Below are positions 10,245-43,397 of a stretch of 64,000 nt of DNA, in pieces; position 1 is the stretch's first letter, and each line of letters starts with the position of its first letter. The DNA is from Pempheris klunzingeri (lineage: Eukaryota > Chordata > Actinopteri > Acropomatiformes > Pempheridae), in assembly GCF_042242105.1 (NCBI RefSeq), contig NC_092012.1, positions 11,385,470 to 11,449,469 of the forward strand, in the 5' to 3' direction. The notes below the pieces were generated by a model. The model was not told where the DNA came from, did no database searches, and saw nothing but the letters and a program-made list of their open reading frames with translations. The position numbers were made by a program, and so were the translations under genes.

Positions 10245-13219
10245 TCACTCTCTACACGTTGCCATGAAGATCTTCATCTCTCCGTCTTCAGCCAGCAGGC
10301 TTGTGTGAAAACTCTTTTTAAAGTTCTCCGTGAAAGTCAGATCCGTCTCAAACCTGACCTTGTTGGCCCAGATCAAAGTCGTTCCTGGTTTGCAGAAATG
10401 CTTCATGGTGACCAGGAGCTCGTCCAGGAAGTCGTGATGGTAGACCACGTCAGCTGCCAGCACGTAGTCGTAGTGATACACGGATGTAGGGAAGGTGCGC
10501 TCTAGGTCGTGACCCCAGGACAGAGTTTCCACCTGGGGCAGGTGCCTGCAACGTCCCCTGGTGTTCCTCATCACGTTGGCTTGGAGGTTACTCAACACCT
10601 CAGGTAAGTCTGTGGCTGTGACTGAAGCTCCTGAGGACGCAGAGACACGAAGCATGCCATCACCATAGCAACAGTAACAGAAAAAGGCCCGTATTGGTGA
10701 CCCTTGTTGAGGTTTAAACTTAGACCGTTCTTGTTTTGTTTAGTCTGTTGATAAAATCATCAAATTTATGATTTCATCAATTGTGATCTTTGTGGGCTTA
10801 TATTAAATATATATATTTTTTTATTATTATATTATATATATATATATATATACACTACCGTTCAAAAGTTTGGGGTCACTTAGAAATTTCCTTATTTTTG
10901 AAAGAAAAGCACTGTTTTTTCAATGAAGATAACATTAAACTAATCAGAAATACACTCTATACATTGTTAATGTGGTAAATGACTATTCTAGCTGCAAATG
11001 TCTGGTTTTTAATGCAATATCTACATAGGTGTATAGAGGCCCATTTCCAGCAACCATCACTCCAGTGTTCTAATGGTACATTGTGTTTGCTGATTGCCTT
11101 AGAAGGCTAATGGATGATTAGAAAACCCTTGTGCAATTATGTTAGCACAGCTGAAAACAGTTTAGCTGGTTAGAGAAGGTATAAAACTGACCTTCCTTTG
11201 AGCTAGTTGAGTATCTGGAGCATCACATTTGTGGGTTCGATTAAACTCTCAAAATGGCCAGAAAAAGAGAACTTTCATGTGAACTTGACAGTCTATTCTT
11301 GTTCTTAGAAATGAAGGCTATTCCATGCGAGAAATTGCCAAGAAACTGAAGATTTCCTATAACGGTGTGTACTACTCCCTTCAGAGAACAGCACAAACAG
11401 GCTCTAACCAGAGTAGAAAGAGAAGTGGGAGGCCCCGCTGCACAACTGAGCAAGAAGACAAGTGCATTAGAGTCTCTAGTTTGAGAAATAGATGCCTCAC
11501 AGGTCCTCAACTGGCAGCTTCATTAAATAGTACCCGCAAAACGCCAGTGTCAACGTCTACAGTGAAGAGGCGACTCCGGGATGCTGGCCTTCAGGGCAGA
11601 GTGGCAAAGAAAAAGCCATATCTGAGACTGGCCAATAAAAGGAAAAGATTAATATGGGCAAAAGAACACAGACATTGGACAGAGGAAGATTGGAAAAAAG
11701 TGTTATGGACAGACGAATCGAAGTTTGAGGTGTTTGGATCACACAGAAGAACATTTGTGAGACGCAGAACAACTGAAAAGATGCTGGAAGAGTGCCTGAC
11801 GCCATCTGTCAAGCATGGTGGAGGTAATGTGATGGTCTGGGGTTGCTTTGGTGCTGGTAAAGTGGGAGATTTGTACAAGGTAAAAGGGATTTTGAATAAG
11901 GAAGGCTATCACTCCATTTTGCAACGCCATGCCATACCCTGTGGACAGCGCTTGATTGGAGCCAATTTCATCCTACAACAGGACAATGACCCAAAGCACA
12001 CCTCCAAATTATGCAAGAACTATTTAGGGAAGAAGCAGGCAGCTGGTATTCTATCTGTAATGGAGTGGCCAGCGCAGTCACCAGATCTCAACCCCATTGA
12101 GCTGTTGTGGGAGCAGCTTGACCGTATGGTACGCAAGAAGTGCCCATCAAGCCAATCCAACTTGTGGGAGGGGCTTTTGGAAGCGTGGGGTGAAATTTCT
12201 CCAGATTACCTCAACAAATTAACAGCTAGAATGCCAAAGGTCTGCAATGCTGTAATTGCTGCAAATGGAGCATTCTTTGACGAAAGCAAAGTTTGAAGGA
12301 AAAAAATTATTATTTCAAATAATAATCATTATTTCTAACCTTGACTATATTTTCTATTCATTTTGCAACTCATTTGATAAATAAAAGTGTGACTTTTCAT
12401 GGAAAACATAAAATTGTCTGGGTGACCCCAAACTTTTGAACGGTAGTGTATATATATATATATATGTTGTCTGAATGGAACTGGAGAGTCCTCACCCAGC
12501 AGACTGGCCACAATGGTTACCAGTCCTGTTCCTGCTCCCAGCTCCAGCACCTCCTTTCCCTGCAGCTTCACCCTCTGTCTGTTGTTGTCCAGGAAGGAGC
12601 ACAGGGCCAATGCCTGCAGGACAAACCGATACAGACCCCTTCCTGTGATTTGTTTTCTACATATGTATCCAACTATTTGTATAAATGGTGTATTTGTTCA
12701 ATGCTTTCTGATGCGCTCACCGCTGGCCACATTACCGCTCCAAAGGAGTCTATGGACTCATAAATGACGATGTCTTGCCCAGCGTAGTGGTAGATATCTT
12801 TATCAAGGCTGCGGTGGATGTTGGGAACCCAGCCTGGTGGCCTGTACGGCTGCTCAGCTGTTTGTTTGATGTGCGTCTGTCCTGTGAAGAGAGGATGGAT
12901 CAAAATTGTAACGGAGGTGAAACAATAAAGGCAAAAATAAAGTTTAAATACAATGTAAACACACAATGCAACAATATTAACGTGAAACACAAGTTAAAAA
13001 GAAAATCGAATGTCTCAGTACGTTGATGTGATGCAATAAAAAGGCATCAGTGCTCTGACAGGCACAAGAAGAGACAAAACATTTTAAGATGTGAACCAAA
13101 CAACCTCGCTGGAATGAAAAAACGAGTCCCTGCTTCTCTTCCTTATAAGTTCAGACACTCTTCACAATTGGACAGTTCATAATAGTTTTGGCCTCACCAC
13201 ATTTTGGCTCCACGTCCAT
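10245..13219 (-). CDS. mettl21c (copy A): METTL21C-like protein-lysine methyltransferase, copy A
   Basis: A class I, SAM-dependent methyltransferase of the METTL21 family, whose members methylate lysines on chaperones and similar proteins; METTL21C is muscle-linked in mammals. Exons on the minus strand: 13198-13219, 12721-12881, 12496-12613 and 10245-10630. They sum to 687 nt (228 aa), near the 264 aa that I recall for human METTL21C. Visible motifs are the conserved N-terminal strand YAGQDIVIYESIDSFGAVMW, SAM motif I ELGAGTGL, the acidic loop TATDLP, and DYVLAADVVYHH. The LLAEDGEMKIF end resembles METTL21C. The 22-nt first exon (MDVEPKC plus one base) was chosen because it ends in a GT donor at the required phase; it is the least certain part. 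A Tc1 transposon occupies the last intron. The 3' end of the last exon is almost identical to copy B. Confidence 0.8.
10853..12448 (+). mobile_element. Near-complete fish Tc1-like DNA transposon
   Basis: The 1596-bp element is bounded by matching terminal inverted repeats, cactaccgttcaaaagtttg at the left and its reverse complement at the right. TA duplications (10851-10852 and 12449-12450) flank it, and it sits inside a TA microsatellite that continues on both sides. It lies in the last intron of METTL21C copy A, in the opposite orientation to that gene. It carries one transposase gene with a single frame break (see next entry). The ends and coding sequence show little decay, so the insertion looks fairly recent. 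Confidence 0.93.
11254..12296 (+). pseudogene. Tc1-like transposase with an N-terminal frameshift
   Basis: A cut-and-paste DDE transposase. The long open part (11325-12296) starts in the first helix-turn-helix domain (MREIAKKLKISYNGVYYSL). It continues with an RSGRPR AT-hook-like linker, the second HTH (TVKRRLRDAG) and the catalytic domain. All three catalytic acidic positions are visible: D in LWTDESKFEVFG, D in QQDNDPKHTS and E in DLNPIELLWEQLD. The natural start appears to be the ATG at 11254 (MARKRELSCEL), but that frame does not join the rest. An apparent one-base deletion near 11285 separates them. No other stop or frame break was seen. The copy is probably not active as it stands, but is otherwise near intact. 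Confidence 0.88.
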
Positions 13220-13716: not shown

Positions 13717-15960
13717 TTAAACAGGAGGAAGTGGGACTTGTGTTGATACAGAAAGAGACAACTCACCTTTAACGTGTCCATTGCCGGCTGTGGTGCAACT
13801 ACTCGAATCACTGTTTCCTGGTTTGTCCTCCTCGTCCTCTCTATGGTCGGCATCTTTGAAGGCCGTTACCTCCTCCTCCTCCTCCTCCTCCTCATCAGAC
13901 TCATGCATTTCTTCCTCACCATCTCCTCTTTCAGGCTCTGACATAAGAGGCTCCTCTGCTACATCATCTTCTTTTCCTTTATTTTTCTCTATGTTGACGT
14001 AGTGCAGCTCAATGTCATTGCGTTTTTCCTGCACAGCCTTTTCTTCGCTCTCCTCATCCTCATCCTCAACCTCCACCCTCTTTTCTTCCTCAGCTTCCAT
14101 CCCTGCATCATCTCCTTCCTCTTCCTCTCTACACGTTGCCATGAAGATCTTCATCTCTCCGTCTTCAGCCAGCAGGCTTGTGTGAAAACTCTTTTTAAAA
14201 TTCTCCATGAAAGTCAGATCCGTCTCAAACCTGACCTTGTTGGCCCAGATCAAAGTCGTTCCTGGTTTGCAGAAATGCTTCATGGTGACCAGGAGCTCGT
14301 CCAGGAAGTCGTGATGGTAGACCACGTCAGCTGCCAGCACGTAATCGTAGTGATACACGGATGTAGGGTATGTGCTCTCCAGGTCGTAGCCCCAGGACAG
14401 AGCTGCCAACTGGGGCGTGTGCCTGCAGCGTCCCCGGGTGTTCCTGCTCAAGTTGACTCTGAGGTTGTTCAGGACCACTGGAAGGTCTGTGGCCGTCACC
14501 CAAGCACCTGAGGATCAAATCTTTCAAATCTTTTTCAGAAATAATAGATAACCTCTCAGGCTCATCATTTCTCCTCTTTCAGGCCTGTCAGAGACACTCC
14601 AAGAGGGCCCATGAACTCAAACACACTACACACTGGAAAGAACTACCTGTTAATTACCGAAAGCATCTCTTTACGTACTGATTGACACTCTCACACTAGC
14701 ACAACCATTATGGCCCATGTGCATCAACTCTATTTTTACTTAATGTGTTTCGTTTTCGTCTCTTGTTTTTTGACTGACTTGTACTCTGTACCTGCCCCAA
14801 TGGCAAAGTGAACTTCTTACCGAGGAGCGTTGCTACAACAGACACCAAGCCGGTTCCTGCCCCGATCTCCAGGACGGCCTTGTCCACAAGACTCAACTGC
14901 TCCCGATGTGTGTCCAGGTAGTGACAGAGGGCCAGAGCCTGAGGGAAGGTCAAGATGAGTTACAGAGAGGTGTTTCACGGTTCAGATCTCCTGGAGCAGG
15001 TTAAATATAGGCCACAGAAGGCCACAGAGGCAAAGATGAGATAATTTACCAGCAAAGCCTTTGTAGATTAATGTGTTTAAGGGTGTCTTAGGCAGGCTGA
15101 GGATAGAGTCTAGAGGATAGAGGGGCCATCAGAGCGGAGGCAGCAGCATGTTGATGTATGACATCCCAATAATCCAGAACTGACGCTAACACTCTGACTA
15201 GTGACTGAATCAGGTAAACAGAGCCATACAGGTTGGTACTATACATGGAAGGATTACCGAGCGGGCCTGAAGGAGTAGCCAAAACATTCACTTATAAGAT
15301 CTCACATGGGAGAAACCAGCATGACACATTTAAAGTGATCTTATCTGTAGGACTTTAGAGCGGCAGAGTTCTGCATGCATGCAATATGGGCCCTTCAACT
15401 CTATGGGCAGAGATCCAAAAACCAAAACCAAAGCGACAGCATTAGAAGCTCTGCCTAAGGCGCCTTGAGGTGCATGCGAATGTAATTATTGTGCTGGCTG
15501 CTAGTCAGTGTACCTGTCTTGCTTGGGTGCAGGGGTCTATTGTGTCATAATCCGCACAGTATGTATGTCATATTGTGGCAAATGAGGTTGCAAATCTGAA
15601 TAAAGGTGCTACTCACTGCCGGCCATATCATGCCTGCATAGGAGTCAAGGCCCTCTTCGATGAGGATCTCCTGCCCCACATAATAGTACACCTCTCTGTC
15701 TGTCCTGTAGAAGAAACACGGAGCCCAGGCTGGTCTTTGTTGCTTCTGCGCGGCTGATTCATCTGAGCGATACAAAAGTCAGACGCTGAGATCTCTGTTG
15801 TCTGAATTTTGGATTTGGATTGAATTGTTATATTCATGTTACCTTTTTCTTCCTTTTTATCTTCCTCATCATTGTCATCATCGTCTTCCTCTTCCTCTTC
15901 CTCCTCCTCCTCCTCCTCCTCCTGCTCGCTTCTCATATAATCCACAAATAAAGTATCCAT
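13717..15960 (-). CDS. mettl21c (copy B): METTL21C-like protein-lysine methyltransferase, copy B, with acidic extensions
   Basis: Exons on the minus strand: 15843-15960, 15617-15762, 14821-14938 and 13717-14507, totalling 1173 nt (390 aa); all phases agree. The methyltransferase core has YYYVGQEILIEEGLDSY, EIGAGTGLVSVVATLLG (SAM motif I), VTATDLP and DYVLAADVVYHHDFL. Unlike copy A and mammalian METTL21C, the protein has a Glu/Asp-rich N-terminus (after MDTLFVDYMRSEQ) encoded by a GAG repeat, and a C-terminal extension of about 130 residues beyond MATCRE that is mostly Glu/Asp with a poly-Glu run near 13870-13893. Where copy A has TGA after MATCRE, copy B has a Glu codon and stays open. The extensions look disordered and low-complexity; no known domain is seen in them. 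Start chosen as the first ATG of the open frame that feeds the exon 1 donor. Confidence 0.85.
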
Positions 15961-20032: not shown

Positions 20033-22401
20033 TCAGGCAGCAGCCTCTCCTTCCTCCTTGGTCCCTCTGTCCTTCCTCCAGGCTTGGTACAGTTTGATAC
20101 TCAGACTGGGGAGGTCATACAGCTCCTCCAGGTGGAAGCGCTGCCGAAAGCGATCAACAAAGCTGTTCTCTGGGTCCAGACGAAAGCGCATGGCCCACAG
20201 GATCTGCGTGTTTTCCTGGCACAGGTGATCAAAAGTGTCCATCAGCTCGTCCAGGTAAGGATGAGAGTACACCACGTCAGCTGCCAGGATGTAGTCGAAA
20301 CAGTGAGTGGCACGAGGGAAACGCTGCTCCACGTCCTGACCCCAGGTGAGCTCTGTGACCTGGAGACAGAGATGATCTAGAGTTGATTGCTACACTGTTA
20401 AACGAGCATATTCTGTCCCTTATTTCAAAAAGCTTGTTTTTAAAAGGAAGTCTTTGACATTTACTACATTTGGCCCATTACCCCAAAAAAACACCAAGAA
20501 AAACAACAAAAAGACAATGTAACATACTGTTTTTAATATATCTGAATATATTTCATCCAGTATCCTCCTGACTATATCACATCTGAATATATAAACCTAC
20601 TAGAGGGATGTACTTGCACCGGCCCTTGGTGTTGCGTGTAACATTGTACTGGAGGTTCCCCAACAGTGCCGGTAGGTCGGTGGAGGTCACCTTAGCACCT
20701 GGAGAGAGACAAAGCAGCTGAGCGTTAAATGAGATACAACAGCGACAGAGAGAGAACAAACAGATTAGGACTAAGAGACTGAAAACTATAATAATTGAAT
20801 TGTTTTGTCTACGAACCCAACAGGCTGGCGACGATGGTGAGGAGCCCAGTTCCGGCACCCAGTTCGATCACATTTTTGTCTGCGAGGTTGTATTTGTCTC
20901 TGTTGGTCTCTAAGAAATGGCACAACACCATTGCCTGTGGGAGGACACGGCTTTATAACCCTGTGATAGTGGCTCAAAATAAAGAGGATACATGGCAGCT
21001 GACTGTAAATGTTGGGAGAATGCGTAAGTTTGGGCGTACCGAGGGCCAGAGTACAGCTCCGTAGAGGTCAGTGGACTCTTTGATACGGATCTCCTGGTCA
21101 GAGAAGATGTATCCCACCCAGGCCTCTGGCCCAATGACAGAGGGGTGGAAATTTCGAGCCATTATGGCTTTGGCTAGCTCTGCATCCACAGCAGCTCCTG
21201 CTTGGACATCCACAGAAGAGACAGATATTATATTAAAGAAATAACAGGATGGCTGAATTCCATTTAGATGACCAAGTTCCTCGTTGCCTCTGCTGTTTGC
21301 TTGTACTTTGTTGTGTACGATGTAGACGTGTCTGATGCTCCAACAACTCAGGCAACGACAGTACAAGTAACTCTATATCCTTATTGTAGGTTAAAATTAG
21401 TTGTCTGACCTGAAGTTGAGTTAAAACACACTGCTAATTAGTTTTTCATCTTCATATGACTCATCTGCCTTGGCACTTGCGAGTTACACAAGTTGCTGCA
21501 GCAAAGTGATGTGACATAGCGATGAGAAATGACTGCTAAAACGTGAAATCTTCCATTGTAGAGAAGAGGAAGGAGAAATGTCATGGATGGATGCTAAAAG
21601 AATAGGCCAAATTACACCAAATATTAAATATTTGAATGGCTTGATGTTTTTTGTACAACAATCCCAGCAGCTACGGCATCAAAATCAGCTGAAAGAAAAT
21701 CTCAACAACAGCATGACAGACAATCCTGCTGTGCATTATTGGTAGGCGTTTCATTTATTTTGTGCACCACGGCACCGAAATAGTCAGAGAGCCATGAATC
21801 AAGCAGATGAGTGATCATGTTGTCCGTCTTTAGTATCACATAGTAAGTAACATTTAAGTCTCTGCTCCATAAATAAAACACATTTAGGCTCATAAAGCCC
21901 CTCTGATCCTGCTCTGTTTGTTTGTAACACTGTGCCGATGTGTCGGACCATAGCCACGTGTTAATCAGAGTTTCTGACTCACAGCCTCAGTTATGAAACA
22001 CCGGTTTAGAGAAAAGGTCAGGGGAGCCCATGGAGATACAATGCAAAGGTTGAGTTGGGTCAGGGTGAGCTCAGGAGCTCAGTTTACAGCTTTTGGTGTA
22101 TATAAATACTTGTTACTTATGTCACTAACATGCAGTAGTTTGCAGAGAGTCCATTTCACAAACAGCCATTTTAGATTCACACTCAGTTTTGGGGGGGATT
22201 TATAAACAACTTCACATGCATATGATCTCAAATTTTAAAGACTTTTAAAAAAAAAAAAAAAAATGTTGATCAGAAAAAAATTACAAACTGTCCTGTGCTG
22301 CCAGCACCAATTAATGCCACTGAATTTAGAAAGAAAAATCTTTAGTTTTCTGTTGTGTACTCTAAATTCTCACCTTCTTCTTTGGTGTTGGAGTCCTCCA
22401 T
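20033..22401 (-). CDS. mettl21e: METTL21E-like protein-lysine methyltransferase
   Basis: The third tandem METTL21 gene. Exons on the minus strand: 22374-22401 (MEDSNTKEE plus one base), 21040-21197, 20817-20934, 20601-20698 and 20033-20359. They total 729 nt (242 aa) and are phase-consistent. Core motifs: IFSDQEIRIKESTDLYGAVLW, IELGAGTGLLTIVASLLG, VTSTDLPALLGNLQYNV, TELTWGQDV and DYILAADVVYSHPYLDELM. The C-terminal part, ILWAMRFRLDPENSFVDRF then LPSLSIKLYQAWRK, resembles METTL21E rather than METTL21C as I recall them. Its last coding block is split by an intron (20360-20600) that copies A and B lack. The donor there is CTA|gtaggt and the acceptor ccag|GTC. The 28-nt first exon ends in a GT donor and feeds the next exon in the right phase. 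METTL21E is a pseudogene in humans but active in mouse muscle. Confidence 0.83.
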
Positions 22402-23248: not shown

Positions 23249-26200
23249 TCAGTTTTTTCCTCCAAGCTTCTTCCCCCTTCCCTTTCCTCTAACGGTTCCT
23301 CTCCCTCTTGCACTTTTCGCTCCACGGCCTCGGCTGCCTTCGAACACAGATCGGGCTGTGACCATAGCAACCTGACCGCCACCGTCGCTGTCCTCGCCAG
23401 AGCTGCTGCTGCTGTTCGCCCCGGTCCTCTGAGGCACAGTCTTAGTAGACTGAGGGAGTGACTTCACAGGGAGTGACTTCACAGGGAGTGACTTCACAGG
23501 GAGTGACTCCTGGCTGATGCTGCTTACATCCTTCAGAGGTGGAAGAGGAGGTTCAACCATCACCTCAGACCCCAGAAATCCTCCTCCTGCAGTAGACCGC
23601 TCCTCTTCTCTCTCTCCTCGTCCTCCTCCTCCTCCCTTCTTTGGACTCTTGCTTGCTGCATTCCCCTTCTTAGATTTGGATGGTGATGGCATTTCCTCCT
23701 CACTGTCCTCCTCCTCCTCTCCTCCTCTTTCCTTTCTCTTCATGCAGGTGACTGCTCGGCGGAGTCGCTGGCTGCGGATCGCCTGCTTTTCCTGTTGCTC
23801 CAAGCGGAAGAACGAGTCGATCCGCAGCTGAGTCTGAACCAAACCAGTAATAGATAAATATAAAAGATATAACACTACAAAGTGGTTGTATTCTCTCCAT
23901 TAATTACTTTTTTTTTTTTCAGATTTACACAATCAAACTGGAGGCTTTAGGAGAGTCAGACACAGAGTGTGCCTATCAGTGATGATGTGACAGTGTTACA
24001 GACATTTACTGCAATATGAAACCTCTCAGTCTTATCATATACACTACTCACAAAAAGTTAGGGATATTCGGCTTTCAGGTGAAATTTCAGGATGAACCAC
24101 CACCAATACATTTCCTGGTTCAGTTAGAATTGGTATTTAAACAGTCCTCCTCATCGTGTTGTTCACATTCTGACATCATGAGACCAAGACGACACCTAAC
24201 TATTGATCAGCAGCACCTCAAAACTGGAGGCTTCAAACAGGTCCTCAGACAGAAGTGTCCACTGAGCTTAGAGGGTCACAGTGTCATCAGCATGTTGCAA
24301 CAGAGATACAGAGACTGGAAGAGTCACAGAAAGGAGAGGAGTGGACGTCCTTTGGCCACATCCCAATTTTACGTTTACCCTCGTTTACCCTCCACTGTTG
24401 TTAGATTTTCTTTCAATAAATTGTTTAAGATGAAGAAACTACCAGTGCATGCTGATACTTAAATGTCCTACTTTCATGATATAATATCACTGTAGCATTA
24501 ACTTTTTACATTTTCCATAAGTTTCACCTGAAAGTCGAATATCCCTAACTTTTTGTGAACCCTGTATATTATATTTTCTTACAAGTAGATTATAAATTGT
24601 TATTCGGTACTATTAACTACTGTATATTAAAGTGGATATTGTTACAATGTTATTTTAATCCAATTGAGCTGTCAATGTTTAGGGTGCTTTACTCAAGTTT
24701 GTATTGGTAAGTTAATACTACCACTAACAATAGTAAAAGGTTTATGTTTAAATTGTTTAGCCATTCATTTTAGCGAAAGAAATCAACATTCATTTTAGCT
24801 ATATCAGCAGTTTATTCATATTTTTAGTCATTTCAACTGCTCATCTTTTACTTTTGGTGTTATTTAACTATTTCAAACAGTTAATCCATTGTTTTTTGTT
24901 AACTATTACAACATCTTTACACACTTGCTGACTGCATGTGTTGTGCTGACGGGCAGCTTTCTGGTCATTGTAAATACAATAAAAAAAAGTATCCTTCCTA
25001 GTTGGGTTACCTGCTGGGTGTTGAGCTGCTTGATCACAGGTTGAAGAGTCTCGTCTGTCTTCTGACTGCTCCAACCAAAACGACTCAGACAGAACGTGAA
25101 AAAAAAAATGGTCAAGGAAACTTCAAACATTCATGAACACACGTGCACATAAATGCACAGAGAGCGAGAGAAAGGATATTCTTTGAGCATGTCGAGTTGT
25201 GGGCGTCCCCAGCTGAAGGAGCTGTCCGACTGGTCCACGGCAGGTTCCAGGTAAGCCTGAGCCACCACAGGGTTGGGGAACCCAGGCTGCAGCTTTAGGT
25301 CCCTCAGTTTCTTCTTCACCTTCGTGTCCCGAGGATCGGCCACCAGACGCTTTTTCTCCTGAGCCTCGGACCACCATTTACTAGAGGGAAGAAACAATTA
25401 CCAGGCAAGACACCAATAAGCCTTTAGGAACAGAAACCATCAACGTTAAAAAGTACAACATTTTGTTAAAACTAGTTTTAACTAGAATCTCCTCCAGTAA
25501 CACTGAAACACACACACATACACACACCTGAAGTGTATGAGTGGGTCCAAGCTTGGCCCTGTGAACTCATTCAGTATCTCCATGCCAGTCACATATCCGA
25601 CCCCCGGCACCCCCTCTGTGTAGTCACTTCCCAGCAGGTACGCTAGGTTTATCAGTTTATTCCTGTCCAGACCTGAGAGACAGAGAGAGGGAAAGAGAGA
25701 AAGAGAGAGAGGAGACAGTAAATGCACCCTCTGGTCACAGTGAGAAGCATTTGTGAGCCTGAATAGTCGTCCATACGGAAATGTGACCAGTGTAATGTAT
25801 CGCTAAGTATTATATGCATTTAAAACGGCGCTATGACTGAAATCAGGCATGGTGCCCCAGAGCTTTAGGCCCTGTGGTCAGTTTGCTGACAGCCCATCTG
25901 TAAACTCTCACTCAAACACCTGTCGCTGAAATGTCCAATATGAAACCATCGGATTAGCGCGGAAATGCGTTATCCTACGACAATTTCAACATCCTACTCT
26001 TTGATTTCAGCGGGACACAAAACAGCAAAATAAAAATCAGCTTCAGTTGCAGTTAGAATGAGAATGAAACTGAATAAATATGATAAAAGGGAGCCTGAAT
26101 AAACCTGCAATATACAGACACACATAGGTTTCATAGAAAAAAAAAAATAATCCAGTAAAATGGTATCATGACTCTTGGTGGTTTGGCTTGTTTCCTCCAT

Positions 26201-27249
26201 CAAACGGGATATTGAGACGTTAGCTGATTTAAATGAAAGTTGGCTGGGTTGCAATTTCTATATGCACCTCCAATATGAAAGAGTCAAAAGCCAGTGAAAA
26301 AATGAAGAGGAAGAGAAATATCAAATTCTGGCCAAAAAAAAAAAAAAAAAAAAAAGAAAGAAATATTTTTTTCTAAATACATTTGACATCATGAATGCAC
26401 TTACATTTTTCCCATCATCTTTTAGACTCTAGAGTGAAAGACTGTCTGTGGGTCACAGTTAATGGAGACCGTTGGCAAACAGGACAAGAGGAATCTAATA
26501 CTTAATAAGGATCAAACATTAACACACACACACACACACACACACGATGGCGAGCACTGACCCAGCAGGTTCTGCAGGTCACTGTACTGGTAGTGTTCGA
26601 CATATTTGTTCTGGCTGAAGAAGTTCTTGTAGACGTGTCGCCCTCCGAACAGCCACACGTCCGAGTCGTCCGTGATGGTCCCGTGTGTGTGGTCAGCGCG
26701 GTCGAGTGCCGCGCACTGAGCCTCGGCCTCCATCGGAGCCACCAGGAACGGCACGCCGAACAGCCGCAGCAGCTCCTGGTATCAGGGGGGAAACAGCCAT
26801 CACTCACAGAATAACTACAGTGATTTGGTCTTCTGAATTCTTGATAATACCAAATCCTTTTGCCCTGATTTTATATAAGTTTTGGTCTGTGATATTATGA
26901 CTATCACCCTCTCTCTCTACTGGCAGCCTGTGACATCTAAGAGTGTGAGTGAGTTGGCACTGACTGCATGACTCTGGGAAAGTTTGGCTAAAGCACCACA
27001 GAGAAATGTATCCTCACCAGTCAGTTCACACCTTCTCTGAGTTATGTTGATCAGCTGGAAGCTATGTTGATGATCCACAGTGTGAGTGGATGTGATTTTA
27101 TAGAGTCTTTGGTTCACCTGGCTCTCCAGGTGCATCTGTCCGGTGACTGTGTTCGCCATCCTCTCCTGCTGCTGTTTCAGCTCCCTCAGGCTGCTCTGCT
27201 CCACCTGCAGAGAGCTCTCCACAGCCTCCAGCTCATCCTGGAACACACA

Positions 27250-27280
<31 letters not shown>

Positions 27281-30200
27281 TTGTGTTTCCATCACTTTGA
27301 AGTACATTACATTGACATATATTCACGTCCAGCTGCCCTTACTTTAACCTTAAGCCAAGTCTTCTCCCTAGAATTCACATTAAGGGGACTTTTTGTCCCC
27401 AAAAGGAAGGAGAGTCTCCACAATGTGACCAGATTTATCAATCTGCTGATCAGCTCAGCCTAAAGACCAGCTGACCAGTTCAAACACATTTTATTTGTCC
27501 ATTTTTTCAGATATTCATCCCTAAGATTTCTGTCTTAGTGGTGGTGCCCACAATATTGAAAAATAAAATGTAGGTCTATATGGAGGGCTAAATACCACTA
27601 GAACTAATTTCAGAAAGAATATTTTGCGTAATTTTGAACTAACCTGTTAAAATAGCATTGAAGTCAAAATCTGGCGTGTTTTAACAATACCTACCAGATC
27701 AAATTGTTCCCATTCACTGACGGCTGGAGCCGAGCTGGACTCCTTCGGCTCGTTCTCTTCAGTCTGTCTCTTTTTGTCCTCCTCTTCTTCTTCTTCTTCT
27801 TTGTCTAATTTCAAAGCAGTGGCTGGTTCGCTGGGAGCCTCTGTCAAACTTTCCTCTGGGTTTCCTTCCTCCTTGAGCCCATCATCATGGACCTCATCTG
27901 GAGATCCTCTCGCTCTGATCATTACGAGCGAATCATCTGCATCCTGCTCTTTAGATTCCTCCTCGGACACCTCGATGAAGCTCTCTGAGAAAACACGCAA
28001 AAAAAGCACTTTTGTGAATATCAACTGCTTCAAGAAATTATGAATGAGCACCACCTGAAACCAACCGTGACTGTACCTTCTGACTCGCTCTCCTCACTGC
28101 TCTCCGACTTCACGTCGTCAGGATGAAGGTCAGTTTCCGCACTGAGAGGTTTTCCGCATATCGGAGCAGAGAGGTTGATGGGTAATGTGTCCTGACTGGA
28201 AGCAGCCTGTGGTTGAACCAGCTCGCCGTTCTTTGCGATCAGTCTGTGCTCCGTTTCTTTTATCTCCAGCTCTTCTCGTTTCTCCGTCGGTCCTCTACTT
28301 CCTGTCCTCATGTCCTCCGTCACCTGCCCTCTCTTCGTCTCCCCTCCTGACTTCATCTCTCTCTCATCAGGTTGGTGCAGCGCCGCAAAGCGAAGTGCTT
28401 TGTTTCTCTGACCGATCACTTCCTCCATCTCATCTTCAGAACTACTGACATACAAACTATCTCCATCTCTCACATGTAACATTTGGACTGTTGGGTTCCC
28501 TTTAAAATCTGATTTTCCAGGAGGTAAAGAGTTCACGTTGTCAGGTTCTGTCTCTTCCTCTGAACTGCTGATGACCACTTGTGGCACAGGATGGTGAATA
28601 TTTGCCTGCAGTTTGGTGGGAGGGTTGCTGATTAGAGCCCCATGTTCAGCAGCACCGTCTTCCTCCTCAGCGAGAGCCTGCTGGATTGCCAGCAGGGTAC
28701 GAGGGGACACGCTACCATCCTTCTCATCCCGGTCCACCTGCTCCTCGTCTGAGCCGTCGTTCATTGCAGCCTGGATTGCCTCGAGCGTGCGAGGCGAGGG
28801 CGGTGACTTGTCCGGCTGAGACGGCTTTGAGACAGATGGTTTAGAGTTTTCTGAGAAGGGACCCCGCGCTGTCTCCTCTTCCTCACAAGCAGGACGCCAC
28901 AAAGGCTCTGGTCTGTCTGCTGCTCGTCTCTTGCAGCCTGACAGGGAGCTCCCAGACCACGGTGCTGCGGCAGGTTGGCTCTCAGGGGCTGTTTCTCTCT
29001 TTTTGGAACCTAGGCAGGAAAAGTCGAGTGGTTTAAACACAAAAACGACATTTTAGATTTGTGTCTACAGGATTTGTGTCTCTTTCACAATGAAACCCTG
29101 TTTAAAGGTCCTTTCCGTAAAACATGCAGCCTTTATTTTACAACAACCACTACTTAAAACACACCATAAGATTATAGATTCATTTCCTGCCATCTGGGTT
29201 ACCATTGGTTTGTACAGATTTCAATATGGCACCAAATCTCCTTGCAAGGACGTAACATACAATATGATGCAATATAAGACGAGCAATGTAACTTAGAATT
29301 TTTGATGCGCTCAATAAATCTAAATTAAATTAAAAATGGCAATTAGGAATTTTTCTGTAAAACACTAAAAAACTATTAACATTGTAGCTGCTCTCACCTT
29401 TAATGAGGATATAGTGGGAATGGTCCTCTGAAACCAGTCGGTGTGACTCCACGCTGTGACTCTGCTGCTCCCCGTCTTGTTGGCAGAGCTGTGGAGCGCT
29501 GCCGGCGCTCTGCTGGCTCATCTCTTTCTCCACGCCCTGCAGACGCTGGTTCAACTGGTTCCTCTGCAGCAGGCCGGCCAGCTGGTACTGGGAAAAGTCT
29601 CCTGACCGCTAAGAGGGAGCGAAGAAGAGTCCGTGTTGAAGCGGAGGAGATGGTTGAGTGTGTGAGTGTGAATGTGAATGAGAGTCAACAGTACCTCTGG
29701 AGGTTTGTGGTACATGGTACGGCGCCTCTTGGAGAACTCTTTCATTTCTTTGAGTATCTCATGTTTCATCTCCGGGGGCAGGCTGGCAAACTCCTCCGAG
29801 TTGATGTCCACTGAGTTGGGAGCTTCATACAATTCCCCCTGAGACACAGGGAGCAATCTGGCTTCAAATGTGAATGATAAAGCCGGGCTGGGCCCATAAA
29901 GCGGACATACTGAAGATACTGACACATGAAAAACAAGATATGATGCCCAAACAGAGGTTTTCACTGTTGACTTCACCACATGAAAGCAGTTAAATACATT
30001 TAGAACATGCTATTTAATTTGATTCACGTGTACAGGTGCTAATTTTACCTGATACATGTCATAACTGTCAACCCTGTCCTCCCAATCTTTCTCCTCCTCT
30101 TCCTCCTCCTCTGCTTCCGAACTGCAAGAATGAAACACACTGAAACAATTGTAGCACCAGCAGAGTTGAAGTGAGAGTGAAATATAAATACACCATATAA

Positions 30201-31244
30201 AACAACACGCTTTGCCAAGCGCTCCTTCCTGCACAGTTATTGCTACCTCGCGACCGACTGATCGCCTTATGAATCTAAAACAGTTTGTTTTCTCAGTGCT
30301 CCTGCTTGTTAAGCAGAGGATGGATGTAAAAGTCTGGACTGTGGATATTCTGACTGCATTACTCGCCACTTTATCCTCAATAACCAGCGAATAGTGACCT
30401 TTCCCAGACACCTCACCTGCTTTTGTCCTTCTCCTCTGCAGCTGGCAGGGCTGGCAGAACATACATGTCGTCCACCTCATCTCTCCTCACAGTGGAGAGG
30501 CTGGGTAGAGGCTCCTTACTGTGGCGGGGAAAGAAAAGAGGGATCCTTAAGAAGGCAGGACTTAGTGCTGCGTTTTCTTTACCATCCCTCCTCCTCCTCC
30601 TCCTCCTCCTCCTCCTGTACACTGCTCCTCTTCCCTTACCTTCGGTCTCCAAGTGCAGCTTTGATAGCTTGTCTCTTCAGGAAAGCCTTGAGCAGTTTCT
30701 CATTGGTCTGTTTGGACTCTCGGCTCAACTCCTCTTTCCGCTGCCTCCTCAGAGCCTGCAGGAGAGCCACGATAAATGAAAGAAGAAGTGAAGAATGGCA
30801 TCAATTTTTAACAAATATGCAAAAACATTTGCACAGATGCTGGTTATGTGGTTCACTGGACGCACCAGAGTCTGTTTCTTCAGCAGCGGTGCATCCCCAT
30901 CAAACACAAAGACCGGCCTGATGCGGAAGAAGAGCAGCTTGCAGATGCGGTGGAAGAGAGTGAGGAGGTGAGCGTTTTGGACACTGTTACCTTCACGGTC
31001 CCTCACCCCCTTCACTGCCTGGTTCAACCATATACTGATGTCTGGGGGTGTCCAGTTAAGGTTAACGCTGTGGCTTCACGTGATTAAATGAGTTAGTTAG
31101 CTGGCAGAGAAATTGACAAAAAGAAGAAAAAAAAGATCACCACAAAGTCAGGATACCGACAGCAAGGATCTTTCCCTCCAGAGTCTCGGGGTTGATGGGT
31201 TTCCCTGTGCTCTCCAGCAGCCTCCAGAGTCCGTGCACTCCCAT
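23249..31244 (-). CDS. ercc5: ERCC5 / XPG, structure-specific 3' endonuclease of nucleotide excision repair
   Basis: XPG makes the 3' incision at DNA lesions and stabilises TFIIH. There are 15 coding exons on the minus strand: 31157-31244, 30866-31041, 30640-30755, 30417-30518, 30049-30121, 29695-29838, 29398-29608, 28077-29009, 27695-27984, 27118-27237, 26562-26775, 25528-25672, 25180-25380, 25011-25095 and 23249-23833. They sum to 3483 nt (1160 aa; about 1186 in human). The N nuclease domain (residues 1-90) starts [11 protein letters not shown] and has D30 in AVDISIW and the Asp of [10 protein letters not shown] long acidic spacer follows. The I domain (about 750-870) has MEAEAQC (E767, E769), [11 protein letters not shown] and [14 protein letters not shown]. 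The PCNA box QLRIDSFF starts at about residue 968, and a basic tail of RGRG repeats ends the protein. All catalytic acidic residues are present, so the enzyme should be active. Two introns appear to be U12-type (listed separately). Confidence 0.95.
23457..23512 (-). repeat. ercc5: 15-bp tandem repeat in the last ERCC5 exon
   Basis: About four head-to-tail copies of gggagtgacttcaca (plus-strand view), in frame and encoding a repeated L-P-V-K-S pentapeptide in the disordered C-terminal tail after the PCNA-binding motif. The first copies are almost identical, so copy number may vary between individuals. Confidence 0.85.
24042..24566. mobile_element. Deleted Tc1/mariner-derived element in an ERCC5 intron
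   Basis: The ends match as inverted repeats: ctcacaaaaagttagggat at the left and ttcacaaaaagttagggat when the right end is reverse-complemented. The match goes on through the ggatattcg and ctttcaggtgaaa segments, and TA bases flank both sides. The interior (about 24178-24361) keeps a decayed piece of a Tc1 transposase DNA-binding region, ending [18 protein letters not shown], but no catalytic domain. At about 525 bp it is a non-autonomous deletion derivative. It lies between ERCC5 exons 15 and 14. Confidence 0.85.
25096..25179 (-). promoter_or_regulatory. ercc5: U12-type AT-AC intron of ERCC5 (intron 13)
   Basis: On the minus strand the 84-nt intron begins ATATCCTTTC and ends TTTTTCAC, so it has AT-AC ends instead of GT-AG. 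The start is the consensus of a U12-type 5' splice site. A perfect minor-class branch site, TTCCTTGACC, lies at about 25110-25119 with its branch A (25112) 16 nt before the 3' end. Removing this segment gives [12 protein letters not shown] across the junction, which matches the conserved XPG sequence. No GT-AG pair nearby restores that peptide. Confidence 0.93.
26522..26545. repeat. CA microsatellite in an ERCC5 intron
   Basis: Twelve uninterrupted AC/CA units just downstream (gene sense) of the donor of the exon at 26562-26775. Confidence 0.95.
27243..27280. repeat. Compound CA/GA microsatellite in an ERCC5 intron
   Basis: A CA run followed directly by a GA run, a few bases upstream (gene sense) of the acceptor of exon 27118-27237. 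In gene sense it reads CT then GT repeats and partly serves as the pyrimidine-rich tract. Confidence 0.9.
31042..31156 (-). promoter_or_regulatory. ercc5: Probable U12-type GT-AG intron of ERCC5 (intron 1)
   Basis: The 115-nt intron begins GTATCCTGAC on the minus strand, close to the minor-class donor GTATCCTTT. It ends with CCTTAACTGGACACCCCCAG. This contains a good U12 branch motif (CCTTAAC) about 14 nt before the acceptor and has no long pyrimidine tract before it. Splicing joins KILAV to DISIWLNQ and restores the first catalytic Asp. Confidence 0.75.
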
Positions 31245-32303: not shown

Positions 32304-35300
32304 ATGACTGCTGCTGTGAGAGGTAACGTTGTTTCCGTATTATTAAATCTCATATACAGGTGTTTACATGTCCTACTTGTTCATCCGCTTCACTTCACAT
32401 AAAACGTCTGTTTTGTCTGAGTCGTTTGAAATCACTTTTGCTTCAATCGTGTCCTCTGTAATCTGTTTTCATGTAGTCTTTCTCTACTGTTTATTTGTTC
32501 TATCAAACTATATAACTTACTCACCTAATGTTACTTATTGGAAGGTTGATAATCAAGATGCTGATTTCTGTGTATCCAGCTTACACAGTTGGCCTGTGTT
32601 AGACTGACAGTAGTGTGTTCAGACCCATTTAAATTGTATTTTAATCACTGCTGCAAGTTCGTACCTTGAATATAAAACATCATAATTGATTTCTTGATTT
32701 TCAAAATTGTGTGACTGCTGATAAATACAAAAACACAACATCTGCACTCATCCACACAGTTGTGGCTGGGTATCATGGGAATTTGTTTTTATACTTGTGC
32801 AGTTCACCTTTTTTTTTTTTTTTTTTTGGTGCCGATACCAAAGCCGTCATTTTGTAAACACCTTACTTTGTGTGTCTAGACACAAAGAGCTGTACAAGAC
32901 ATTGCCAGGTTTAAATAAGGTGTAAAAATGGAAAAAAATTGAATTAAATCAGGAACTAGCTTAAAGGGTAAACAACTTGGAGCAACAGACACGCTTTGGT
33001 TGGTACCAATAAGTATTGAATTTCAATACTCAGCCCAGCAGGCTGCTAGAGAGGGGCAGTGGTGATTAACTTTGGTATTTACTTCATACCTTGAAATATT
33101 TGTCCATGTTTGGCGTTGCAAATCAACTATTTTGTTGTGTATTACAAAGCTGACTCACATCAGGATTAACATTGGACCATACATGACACGTGCATCCCAT
33201 TGCATCCTCACTGATTTATAGAAATGCTCACATGTTGGATCGCTCAGGATGCATTCAAGTGCACAGTGTAAACTTGGCATTATTTATTTCTTCCAGCTTC
33301 TGCCAAAGTGCCTATCCGAGGTGCTGGTGATGGCATGGAAACAGAAAAACCACCAGCCGTCCTGGAGGTAAACACGGATACGCTACCGCCAGGTCCGTCT
33401 GCAGTTCCCCTCCTGAAGGTGGCCAGCCCAAAGAAAAGCCCCAAATCTACTCATCCTGCCCGTCCTGCTGCTGCCCCCCAGCCTCTCGGCGTGCTCCATT
33501 TGGGCAAAGTGAGCCGAGAGGCCTGCACAGAGGTGGAGGCTGTGAGGATAGTTGTCCCGCATGCCGCTATTAGCCGTAGCAGGCGCATAGGACCTGCTGA
33601 GGGGAAAGGGGAGGCTGGGCAACAGTCTGAGGAGCAGGGCTCTCCCCCGCTGCCTCTGGTGGAAGACTGGAGAGGACAGCTGGAGAAGCTGCAGAACTCT
33701 GAGCGCAGGCTGCTGCAGGACAAGGAAGGCCTTTCCAATCAGCTCCGTGTGCAGACAGAGGTAACGCCCAATGAAGCAAATACATTTATTTTGATGTTAG
33801 ACACTCCAGGCAATGCACAGTCAGATTTATTGCTCTTGAGTGTATCAAAACATGCAGAAATTCACTTTGTGTGCCAGGTGAACCGTGAGCTAAAGAAACT
33901 CCTGGTGGCGTCGGTGGGTGATGACCTTCAATACCACTTTGAGCGCATGTCACGGGAGAAGAACCAGCTGATCCTGGAGAATGAGGCTCTTGGCCGGAGT
34001 CTGGCGCACACCGCAGAGCAGCTGGAGCGCATGAGTATCCAGTGTGACGTTTGGAGAAGCAAGTTCCTGGCCAGCAGGTATGAAAAAGACAAGGCAAACA
34101 GTTGGAAAGGGATGCAGGTCTTTATGTTGGGGCATCACCAGTACCTGTCCTCTTGTCTTCCATTTTAAAAGAAGCTTTATGTGGGCAAACATCTGTCAAG
34201 GATTTCAAGAAAATTTCAACATGGCGGCTGGAGGACAAACTAAAAAAGATTATTGTTTTACAAGGATCAATAAGAGAGAAGTTGCATAATTACTGTTATC
34301 ATGCTGAGTAAACACTTGCATCAATACTGTCTCTTCAGAGTCATGGCGGAGGAGCTGACGAATGCCAGAGCAGCTCTGCAAAGACAGACCAGAGAGGCAC
34401 AAGGAGCAATTCAGGACCTGCTGTTAGAAAGAGAAGAGTTCTCCAGGGACATGGTGCACACTCACAGGTAACATACATACTAAATTAAGTAAAACAACTT
34501 AAAAATCCTAAAGATGAGTCAAAGAAAAGGCGCTCAAACTTGGTTGAATTCAACACATTAGGACTGCCTGCAGACTTAAGTTGCCACCAGATGAATAACA
34601 AATGGAGTCATTGCTCCACTTAATTTTCTGTCAAGAAAGTAAACATTCAACTTGAGGTGCCCCACTTTACAGTTCATTTGTTAAAAAAAAGTTATTTGAA
34701 ATGTGTGTAAAATACACACAAGACACATCTCTAGTAGCTGTACATAGGCCCATATATGTTTAACAGATTACCCTCTGTTAAAGCAAAGAAGTAGACTCGT
34801 ATTGGCATTTCTTTGTAGCAGGAACACTTGACCGACACTTGCCTTTTTAAGTTTCTTTTTAATTGTTGAGCTTAGTGAACATGTACACTTTCTGCTCGAT
34901 ATTTGTTTGCATTCACAAAATTGCTGTGTAGTGTTTAGCTGTGTGCTTTTAATTTGAAATGTTTATTAATGTGATTATGAGTTGAAGTTGAAGGACCAAA
35001 GGTAAAGGCATTTCAAGGGTTTGTCCAGCCTGCAGTATTTTGTTAGCATAGATGAAGATGACTGAGTCTGTGTGCTGACTGTTCTTGCTTTCCCGTTGCC
35101 AGATCTCTGGAGCAGCTCCTGGTGTCTCTGCAGTGGGGCAGACAGCAGACGTACTACCCCAGCGCACAGCCCCTCAGCACCGGAGAGCTGGCAGCAGCTA
35201 ATCACAAGCTGGCGGACGCCATCAACTCCCACCTACTGGGCAACACCAGCAGCAGCCAGGTGAAGAGCAGCGGTGCAACAGCTGAGCAGCTCTGCAGCAC

Positions 35301-36916: not shown

Positions 36917-38449
36917 TCACTTATCATCCCACCACATCTTTTTTTTGCCTGCGTCTTTCCTTCCCTCCATGTGGCTCTTCACTGATGTCCGTACTCTGGT
37001 TGCAGCTGGTTTGTTTTCTTTGTTGTAGGCCAGTCCAGCCGTTCTGTTTCCACTGGTGAACTCAGACCTGTAAAGACTTTGGCCCTGATTTTTAAATGTC
37101 CTCTCACCAGATCTTAACCACCTGTCCCCATCCTCTCTTGGCCCATTATTCGTGACTCTCCTGACTCTCTGATTGCTGATCTCCTGTGTACGTTGTTGGT
37201 GGAAGCCATGGTGCTTCCTCTTAGGCACAAACTTCAACGCCTCCTCCCATTTCCCCGTGTCCTTGATAGTGAGCATGATGTGGAACATCTGGTCCAGAGT
37301 CAGGTTTTTGGCCCCCATCTCCCAGTGGAGGTACTCGTCCAGCGGTAAGCGTGCTGTGGCCAGCTTCAGACGTTTGGCATTAGCCAACGACAAGCCTGTC
37401 TGGATGGAGCGGTCCACTAGAGCTCCGATGATGTAGACCTTGGAGTGGTCAAACGTGCGGAGGACATTCGGGGAGTCTGCAGTGAGGTATACCAGCTGTT
37501 CGCGGGGGAACATGTCGACATGCTGGCGGTGGGTGCTGGTGATGAGCAGGTGCTCCCAGGTCTCTGCACCGTACCGTTTGAGCAGCTCTTGCTGGTACGC
37601 CCCGTCTGCCTGCAGGTTGCAGAAGTGGAGGTGGTAGGGCTCAGTGGCACGCCGGTTGCACCCTTCCACTTCCATCAGCTGGTTTATGGTGTTCTCTACC
37701 TCCCGCCTGGACATGTAGGAGTTGTAGCTCATGTCGAACACCAGCGGCTGACCAAACAGCATGGCCTGGGCGCTCCTCCAGGCCAGCAGTTTGTCCAGGG
37801 AGCGGCTCCAGTACTGGAGGAACAATGTGTTTTTAAACCCATGTCCTCCCCGATCGCCTCCTTCCTCTGCATCGCTGTCCTGTCTTTTTTTCTGCTCTAT
37901 CGAAGCTTCCCTTTCTGCCTTCCTCTGCTGCTGCTTCTCCTTACGGTTCTTTTTGTGGCCCTCCCTGATAGCCAGGTACTTCAGGTACTTCTTCCTGGAG
38001 GACTTGGTGGTGAGCTCTGCCAGCGTCTGAACCTCCTCATCAGTGATCTCCTCTGGTACGAGCTTCCCAGCTTGCCTCCACATCACAACCAGCTCCCGAG
38101 TTGCCTCCAGAGAAGAACTGCTCTTTAAACCACCTCCTGGTTCATCATCATCATCACTTGCATCCTCTTCATTCACGGCTCGTTGATTCTCCTCCGCTGC
38201 AACTTTGGATCTCATTACAGATTTCCATTTATCCAAATCTATTGTCTGTATGTCCTCGGATTTCTCTCTATTTGGTTGGAGGGCATCTTTCCACACTGGC
38301 CTCCCAGTGTTGAAGTGGCGAGTGAGGAGGTCTCGGTGATGACAGGCGCTGCCGATTGGGAGGAAACTTACAGTTTTCCTCTTGGGGACACAGGACGCCA
38401 CAAAATGACAGAGTTCATGGACAGCTTTCGTGTTGATGAGCCGTAACAT
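36917..38449 (-). CDS. trmt10c: tRNA methyltransferase 10C, mitochondrial RNase P subunit 1 (MRPP1)
   Basis: With SDR5C1 this protein makes m1A/m1G at position 9 of mitochondrial tRNAs, and with PRORP it forms mitochondrial RNase P. It is a single uninterrupted coding exon of 510 aa, as in other vertebrates. The N-terminus (MLRLINTKAVHELCHFVASC) is basic/hydrophobic with few acidic residues, as expected for a mitochondrial presequence. A Lys/Glu-rich helical region precedes the TRM10 SPOUT domain, where QPLVFDMSYNSYMSRRE, YIIGALVDRSIQTGLSLANA and LPLDEYLHWE are visible. The catalytic Asp is in VFDMSYN or GALVD by family analogy. After FVPKRKH, about 98 residues form a basic, Asn/Arg-rich tail that the roughly 403-aa human protein lacks. 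The gene is head to head with TXNL4B. Confidence 0.93.
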   Translation of the reverse strand: MLRLINTKAVHELCHFVASCVPKRKTVSFLPIGSACHHRDLLTRHFNTGRPVWKDALQPNREKSEDIQTIDLDKWKSVMRSKVAAEENQRAVNEEDASDDDDEPGGGLKSSSSLEATRELVVMWRQAGKLVPEEITDEEVQTLAELTTKSSRKKYLKYLAIREGHKKNRKEKQQQRKAEREASIEQKKRQDSDAEEGGDRGGHGFKNTLFLQYWSRSLDKLLAWRSAQAMLFGQPLVFDMSYNSYMSRREVENTINQLMEVEGCNRRATEPYHLHFCNLQADGAYQQELLKRYGAETWEHLLITSTHRQHVDMFPREQLVYLTADSPNVLRTFDHSKVYIIGALVDRSIQTGLSLANAKRLKLATARLPLDEYLHWEMGAKNLTLDQMFHIMLTIKDTGKWEEALKFVPKRKHHGFHQQRTQEISNQRVRRVTNNGPREDGDRWLRSGERTFKNQGQSLYRSEFTSGNRTAGLAYNKENKPAATRVRTSVKSHMEGRKDAGKKKMWWDDK

Positions 38450-40763: not shown

Positions 40764-43397
40764 CTAAAGGTGTATTTCTACATTTACAGTAGACGCCATG
40801 CTGTCTCTTCTCCCCTCTGACGGAGGCCCGGGTGCTGCGTCTTCTGAACGAGCCACACGAGACGCAACATCAGCTGCTGAGGAATCGTCCGTGTTCTCAT
40901 GCCTCTCTTTGATCCAGACGTCATACAAAGAGTTAGACCTGTATTCAAACTGTATTCAAAGAGAAAGGCGAGGGAGTAAGTCGGAAAGCAATATGAGGTA
41001 GAATCTTCACCAGTTTGGTTTAGTCTCCATCTCTGTGAGTAACCAAAAATAGGTCTAATGTTACAGTGATGGCTCACCTCTGTCGGTTTCTCCTCTGTCT
41101 CAGTGTTTTGTTTCTTCTGTATTTTGCCTAAATAGAGATAATGTGATCAGACAAATATACGCTTCTCCATTATAGATATAGTCATCACAATCTTTCTCAA
41201 ATTTCTGATAATAATTATTCTTACCTTTGCATTTAAGAGCAGCTCCAACGCAAACACAGAGCAATACAATGCTGAATACACCCAGAACAGGCCACTTCCA
41301 CTGGACTCCACCAGCTGGAGATTCCTCCAGAGACCCTAACAATGAGGGATGTGTGTTTTCATGCCCAGCGCCATGGTGCTCAAAGGCAACAGTCAACTGT
41401 TCTTAAATGAATTCATGTTTTTACAATCAACCGTACCTGCAGCCTGTCTTGTTACGCTGTCCCTTGTTGGGCTGTGTTCCTTGTAGCTGTAACCCAGGCT
41501 GTGGGTGTCCCTGCCCCAGTAGAAGTTGTTGGTGCGTAGCGGGAAGAAGGGGGCCATGTAGGCCTGCGCTCTCTGGGCCGGATGGACCTGGTCACTGTCA
41601 GGGTAGGCTGCTTCACTGTGGTTCCTTAACCACCTCTCGAGAAGCCTGGCACCCATTCACACAGCGCAGATAATGCTATGAAATTCTTAATAAACCAGCG
41701 TTGTTAATAAAATGATTGCAGTGAACTCAAATGCACTGTTCACAAAATTGTATCTTCATTTCTACTGATTAAAGGATAGATTCACAACAGTCTGTGAATA
41801 CATGAAGAGGGAATTTCATACTAAGAGATTCGAAATTCCACCTCCTCATATTAGCTTCAGCTGAACTTTATAATGCATTAGAAGGAATCGCTCTGGAGAC
41901 AATGTGGATGCTTTACAATTACAGCAAATATCTCTTTCAAGCCAGGGTTGTTTTTAAACAGACTTAGAAGAAATGGGAATAGTGCTAAGAGTTAAAATGA
42001 CACGACTTACTTGTCAATGAAGCTGTGATGCAGCATGAATATGGGGTCATTGGCAGCGGTGGGCACCAGAGACAAAGTGCCATTGAAGTATCTGTGGATC
42101 AGGTTGTGCATAGAGGCATTCAAGTGTCTGGAATCGTTGGGAATATCAAAACCTGGGAGCACAGAGGTACACATTTGAACTAGATTTACAATTACTTTTT
42201 TTTGCTGATTATATATCGAACTGTTTTATTGCTTTATATTGTAGAATTCTATTATAAATTGTTGAAGTTTTGGTGGCAGGGATTTGAAAAAGGTCACCCG
42301 AATTATAATGTATAAATCAGGCAATTTAATCTACCTTCTAGCATGTTCCTGAAGCTGTTCCTAGATGTTAAGTTAAATGGGGGAGTGTCATAAAGTTGTT
42401 TTCCCATTGTGTCTTCAACATCCTCTGTGGTCGGCAGTGTTTCGTACATTGGATCCTTGCCAGGGTTGCGGATCAGATGTGCAGGATCGGAGGCAGAGTC
42501 GATGCAGATAATACCAAGACTTTCCTGAAATGGACATATGGTCTGTTGGGAGAAAAGAAAGAAGGAAGAGTTTGATGAGGACAGCTTACAGACATTTGGA
42601 AAAGAATGGGAACGATATCTCACCTTCCACTGTGAGAAAAGGGAAGCACTGTCTATACGGCCACCTTGGCCAACTCCTCCAAAGTACTGGTTGGTGCAGA
42701 TGTTACAGTGGCTGGTTCTGGTCCAGTCCCAGTATGGGATATAGAAATCCTGATTCCCAGTGAGCTCCCTGATCTCCCTCTCAACAAAGAGTAAAAACAC
42801 TCGGTGCCAGAAGGTAAAAGCGGGTCCCCGGTGTGCAGCATTATTTTCAGAAGCAGTGTATTTCTTAGCTGAGTAGTAGTGCAGCCATACATATAAATCA
42901 TAGACACTCGAGTTGTGAAATTCATAGTTCTCCTCCTCTGTTGTGTCATTGCTTCTAAGGATCATATACCGGCTGCTGAGGCTCTGTTTTGCCTGGTGCA
43001 GGCTTGAGAGGAAGGTCTCCCTCTCAGAATCAGACAGATCTGTTATCTCTTTCCTCTCCACGTGGTGCCGTTGCAGACATTGGGGTCCTCTCCAGCCTGG
43101 GAGGCACTGACCACAGTCATACCCATCGTAGTTCCCCCAGCACGTGCACACTGAATCATAGAAGGCGCGAGGCCAGTTCACCCTGAAGTCCACTGGTTTT
43201 GGGAGGTCTCTTGCAGGATGTGGTGCACAGACTCCTCTCCCTGAGTTGAATCCACAAGGAGAGCCCTTCCATCGGGGGCAACATGTTCGGGTCTGCAGAG
43301 CCTCAGGTGTTGTGCAGGGACGTGGAAACTGGGCCTCCACCCCTCTGAGGCTCATCAGATACAGGACCAGCCAAAACAACTGGAAAGACAGCAGCAT
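40764..43397 (-). CDS. Tyrosinase-family copper oxidase, divergent tyrosinase-like protein
   Basis: Type I membrane copper enzyme of the tyrosinase family. Seven exons on the minus strand: 42624-43397, 42335-42542, 42011-42152, 41437-41645, 41225-41335, 41078-41127 and 40764-40949. They sum to 1680 nt (559 aa) in one frame. A signal peptide ([22 protein letters not shown]) leads to QFPRPC and a Cys-rich EGF-like region ([15 protein letters not shown]). Copper site A: His in [18 protein letters not shown] and FWHRVFLL. Copper site B: His in [13 protein letters not shown] and FMLHHSFID. All six ligands are present, so catalysis is possible. One TM helix ([20 protein letters not shown]) precedes a tail encoded by two extra exons. 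The first four introns match the TYR gene as I recall it. The tail lacks the EEKQPLL-type melanosome signal of TYR and has a possible YDVW motif. It could be tyrb or a further fish paralogue, so I give no symbol. Confidence 0.88.

Follow-up and report, generated by a model that had tools for sequence, protein, structure and literature searches.

Intron 13 of ERCC5 (XPG) in the fish Pempheris klunzingeri is, with high confidence on the evidence of its splice signals and of the protein joined by its removal, a compact U12-type (minor-class) AT-AC intron. It runs from 25179 to 25096 on the minus strand of the window (the whole stretch of 64,000 nucleotides that was analysed, to which all positions refer), where we very probably have a real U12-type intron and a fresh example of a known intron kind. 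A first-pass annotation of the same DNA had described it, and its coordinates, AT-AC ends, length of 84 nt, branch motif and branch distance of 16 nt were all exact on re-reading.

ERCC5 gene model

23249..31244, minus strand: ERCC5 (XPG) coding region, 15 exons, 1160 codons plus stop

The model has an ATG at 31244, a stop codon ending at 23249 and 14 introns. In a PDB search it matched full-length human ERCC5 (9pd5_S, residues 1–1182) with E 3e-262, which confirms the gene named at first pass, and the human match of the full model extends over residues 1–1144. Pfam XPG_N and XPG_I were found in two scanned segments of the model. Human ERCC5 encodes the orthologous protein and has 15 exons as well; the number 13 previously given to the intron agrees with our 15-exon model, in which it is number 13 of 14.

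Scoring with a U2 splice-site matrix served solely to propose junctions. It gave no GT-AG join for intron 6, and for the intron 7 acceptor its best position was 28938, against 29010 in the model, which lies beyond the matrix search range. Introns 4 to 9 were placed by eye and the intron 14 acceptor by script; the intron 7 acceptor is uncertain because conservation is poor along the long region of exon 8 and the human protein is no guide there.

Signals of intron 13

25096..25179, minus strand: ERCC5 intron 13, AT-AC, very probably U12-type, 84 nt, phase 2
25171..25179, minus strand: intron 13 5′ splice site ATATCCTTT, 9/9 to RTATCCTTT
25111..25119, minus strand: intron 13 branch site TTCCTTGAC, 9/9, branch A at 25112
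25096..25098, minus strand: intron 13 3′ splice site CAC
25180..25380, minus strand: ERCC5 exon 13, 201 nt
25011..25095, minus strand: ERCC5 exon 14, 85 nt

Read directly and by script on the minus strand, intron 13 starts with ATATCCTTTC, its first A being at 25179, and contains TTCCTTGACC at 25119..25110. Its branch A lies 16 nt from the 3′ end, and a run of ten T (T10) stands between the branch site and the CAC end. U12-type introns have the consensus 9-mers RTATCCTTT at the donor and TTCCTTRAC at the branch site, and our motif scores are equal-weight matches to these 9-mers; the branch site, called perfect at first pass, agrees with TTCCTTRAC at all nine positions. According to a review (PMC3584512), the 5′ splice site and the branch site are the defining features of U12-type introns, the optimal distance from branch to 3′ end is 11–13 nt, and a distinct polypyrimidine tract is absent. 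This absence is a typical, non-defining trait of the class, and intron 13 departs from it with its T10 before CAC. The branch-to-end distances of intron 13 (16 nt) and of intron 1 (14 nt, see below) both exceed the cited optimum.

The T10 tract so close to the 3′ end looks like the polypyrimidine tract of a U2 intron, and AT-AC introns of the major (U2) class do exist (PMC6717393, PMC8280824), which could make intron 13 one of these. However, in sodium channel genes every AT-AC U2-type intron carries G at +5 (PMC2831892), whereas intron 13 has C at this position, within a donor that matches the U12 consensus at 9/9 and together with a 9/9 U12 branch site; we consider a major-class AT-AC intron highly improbable.

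Taken singly, ATATCCTTTY has one match in the window (shuffle mean 0.38) and TTCCTTRAC has three (shuffle mean 1.47). The full AT-AC pattern, searched at full consensus with a spacer of 30–60 nt, was found once in the window and in 0/100 shuffles, and twice in the 646-Mb assembly, where the reversed-pattern control gave 0 matches. The second assembly match lies on contig C22, where each of the three frames meets a stop in the 150 nt upstream; it is apparently non-coding and probably due to chance. Thus, of the two compact full-consensus AT-AC patterns in the assembly, that of ERCC5 alone lies in a recognised gene. Counted by site, a 9/9 donor is present at 1/9166 AT sites in the window, namely that of intron 13, and a 9/9 branch site lies 8–20 nt upstream of 2/7596 AC sites, that of intron 13 and one at 17793.

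Splice ends placed by the protein and by splicing rules

The codons joined by removal of the 84 nt align gap-free to human XPG at Glu960. The join is in phase 2 (GA/G) and makes fish Glu938, the equivalent of human Glu960; the human counterpart of the intron position was placed at the protein level. Since the 9pd5_S alignment as printed stops before the intron 13 junction, the latter is covered by separate XPG alignments: human XPG is gap-free over 95 aa across the join (E 1.5e-35, three human XPG alignments, PDB).

Joins were enumerated between two conserved anchors, from 200 donor positions and with acceptors at least 20 nt downstream, which gave 4126 in-frame stop-free joins. Only 85 of the 4126 had ends among the listed pairs (GC-AG 22, GT-AG 19, AT-AG 16, GT-AC 16 and AT-AC 12), and among these 85 the 84-nt AT-AC join had the top score against the human segment (289), ahead of the best GT-AC (272), a second AT-AC (271), AT-AG (270), GC-AG (266) and GT-AG (262) joins. 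The first-pass statement that the junction reads correctly only with AT-AC ends therefore holds in so far as this join is the best of the 85, but not strictly, since the identical protein is encoded by two other joins of 84 nt (TA-CG and AT-GT), whose ends are displaced by one or two bases. Neither of these is a usual spliceosomal pair; the protein sets the length of the intron and leaves a margin of two bases for its ends, within which AT-AC is the choice by splicing rules. In the PDB alignments the reading frame is kept both with AT-AC ends in intron 13 and with GT-AG ends in intron 1. The junction peptide matches the assembly only at the ERCC5 locus, in two pieces that meet at intron 13, and no retrocopy with the spliced join was found in the assembly at E up to 10, among the best-scored candidates.

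A GT-AG pair might be used here instead, or alternatively, as the 19 in-frame stop-free GT-AG joins (top score 262) allow; an example is 25158..25084 (75 nt, in frame), which has a T-rich tract ahead of the AG at 25085/25084. This join, however, drops EFC residues common with human and scores 27 below the AT-AC join, and its donor, TCT/GTGCATTT, is by eye a poor U2 site, all of which makes the use of a GT-AG pair very unlikely. As a separate observation, the stretch 25084..25158 (minus strand) overlaps intron 13 and is possible as a cryptic major-class alternative, in a minor or stress-induced isoform. That a GT-AG intron is masked by an error in sequencing or assembly is hardly credible: although a single assembly stands behind the splice-site bases, the errors would need to leave a 9/9 donor and a 9/9 branch motif, and removal of the intron as called keeps both frame and protein.

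Intron 1, a probable second U12-type intron

31042..31156, minus strand: ERCC5 intron 1, GT-AG, 115 nt, phase 1, probable U12-type, splits the Asp30 codon
31148..31156, minus strand: intron 1 5′ splice site GTATCCTGA, 7/9
31055..31063, minus strand: intron 1 branch site AACCTTAAC, 7/9, with its branch A (31056) 14 nt from the 3′ end

Reading of the other introns of the model against the same 9-mers brought out intron 1 as a second candidate, absent from the first-pass annotation. It interrupts the codon of Asp30, a catalytic metal ligand, and it ends with CTGGACACCCCCAG, without a long pyrimidine tract before the AG. Its join was set by the gap-free human protein alignment and not by splice score, and the U2 matrix ranks this protein-fitting join third of 11. 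The donor core GTATCCT occurs at 11/7609 GT sites in the window and the branch core CCTTRAC at the right distance for 10/8564 AG sites, intron 1 being included in both counts, for a joint background of ~1.7e-6. A looser rule (7/9 plus 7/9) gives ~4e-4 per site pair, and this is the fairer figure, because the GTATCCT and CCTTRAC cores were picked after seeing intron 1. On these motifs, intron 1 is probably U12-type, of the GT-AG subtype. The 12 introns besides 1 and 13 are all GT-AG in the model, match the donor 9-mer at 2–5/9 and the branch 9-mer at 4–6/9, and look ordinary.

Minor-spliceosome machinery in the assembly

All four minor-class snRNA genes (U11, U12, U4atac and U6atac) are present in the host genome. 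With Rfam models, and over the gathering score, U11 (118.9 bits), U12 (128.7 bits) and U6atac (135.2 bits) were found at one locus each, and U4atac at two (L009 and L010, with 96.9 and 83.1 bits); one U4atac-like locus may be a pseudogene or a second gene. For the family of CCDC84 (CENATAC), a factor specific to AT-AN introns, four above-cut-off matches lie in a 4-kb stretch of one contig, and stops interrupt three of them.

The intron 13 donor has seven contiguous bases complementary to the genome's own U6atac and five to its U11, and TTTCCTT, which begins one base upstream of the branch motif, gives 7 nt complementary to its U12. The longest complementary runs for intron 1 were 4 nt with U6atac, 4 nt with U11 and 5 nt with U12, the U11 and U12 runs lying outside the motifs. 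Duplex energies computed for U11 and U12 separate neither intron from random sites: those of intron 13 were equalled by 676/3000 random GT/AT sites (U11) and 244/3000 AG/AC sites (U12), and those of intron 1 by 1276/3000 (U11) and 707/3000 (U12). The snRNA pairing of both introns is thus consistent with the U12 class, and no proof of it.

Predicted splicing and effects of retention

If intron 13 is processed as its signals suggest, ATATCCTTT would base-pair first with U11 and afterwards with U6atac, TTCCTTGAC would base-pair with U12, and the minor spliceosome would take out the 84 nt and join GA/G at Glu938. When the intron is not removed, an in-frame stop is added and the protein ends after 953 aa, so that retention would cost the region encoded by exons 14–15; the last exon junction being 120 nt downstream of this stop, nonsense-mediated decay would be expected. 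Retention of intron 1 ends the protein after 35 aa.

When CENATAC was depleted in human cells, effects were seen on 92% of the A-type minor introns, 24% of the G-type ones and 0/85 major AT-AC introns or related subtypes (PMC8280824). Shorter minor introns showed higher retention in mouse and human (PMC6717393), and were more retained in zrsr2-mutant zebrafish (PMC9501576). From these data on CENATAC and on length, intron 13 should be among the more retention-prone minor introns and sensitive to CENATAC loss, and intron 1 should be less CENATAC-dependent.

With full-consensus U12-type signals in intron 13 and a first intron that looks U12-type, the repair protein ERCC5/XPG is probably reliant on the minor spliceosome. 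A wider proposal, which we regard as less likely than not, is that the minor spliceosome controls ERCC5 twice, through a GT-AG intron at the Asp30 codon after the start and through a compact AT-AC intron before the C-terminal region. Loss of U12 or CENATAC would then lower or truncate XPG and lead to a nucleotide-excision-repair defect, with intron 13 acting as an unusually retention-prone switch, being AT-AC and very short. If both introns are minor-spliced, a core repair nuclease would depend on the minor spliceosome at two points, through subtypes with a different CENATAC response, and disease or inhibition of the minor spliceosome would be tied directly, at the level of a gene, to the repair of UV damage.

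Other genes in the window

33308..34168, plus strand: ORF divergent from ERCC5 and upstream of it, with a DASH_Hsk3 match above the Pfam cut-off, presumably resembling golgin-45/BLZF1
36917..38449, minus strand: open 510-aa ORF, presumably TRMT10C-like, in which Pfam finds a tRNA (guanine-1)-methyltransferase domain
11325..12296, plus strand: open 323-aa transposase ORF, HTH_Tnp_Tc3_2 and DDE_3, Tc1/mariner-like
13717..14499, minus strand: lysine methyltransferase ORF, Methyltransf_16 (Pfam)
20241..20952, minus strand: stretch similar by eye to 13717..14499; one frame scanned, no Pfam match
42303..43433, minus strand: tyrosinase-domain ORF (Pfam)
57037..57984, minus strand: rhodopsin-family receptor ORF (Pfam)

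The resemblance of 13717..14499 and 20241..20952 suggests a METTL21-like tandem pair. In sheep, METTL21C is given in the same region as ERCC5 (PMC8327097).

Comparison with known systems

U12-type splice sites have reportedly been described for human XPG, and the architecture of the human gene is said to be the subject of a 2001 paper; the human case may well be in print already. Among the open-licence texts examined, we found no paper on minor-class introns of ERCC5/XPG, and for xeroderma pigmentosum together with the minor spliceosome the text examined treated only XPC. Minor introns are known in information-processing genes, including those for DNA repair (Burge et al. 1998, cited in PMC6865273), and genes with two minor introns are known as well, 50 in mouse and 50 in human (PMC6717393). 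DNA damage is reported after reduced minor splicing in human A549 cells and in a liver-cancer model in zebrafish, and for leukaemia cells of the mouse Parp1 is named as a transcript relevant to repair whose minor-intron retention is raised (PMC12332006); the main text of that paper has no word beginning with Ercc.

Compared with known GT-AG U12-type introns, intron 1 shares the GTATCC donor, the CCTTAAC core 14 nt from the end, phase 1 and the lack of a long pyrimidine tract before the AG, but it has two mismatches in each 9-mer, which makes its class call less certain. Intron 13 shares with AT-AC U12-type (A-type) introns the ATATCCTTT donor, the TTCCTTRAC branch site, the AC end, a phase other than 0, and a place among mostly major-class introns in a gene of information processing; it differs from them in its 16-nt branch-to-end distance and its T10 tract. 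It is also very short, at 84 nt against U12-type medians of 451 nt (retained) and 1398 nt (not retained) in zrsr2-mutant zebrafish (PMC9501576). Intron 13 is thus a good example of a known intron type and not a new type, and the arrangement of two such introns in ERCC5, the first of them probable, is the part most worth following.
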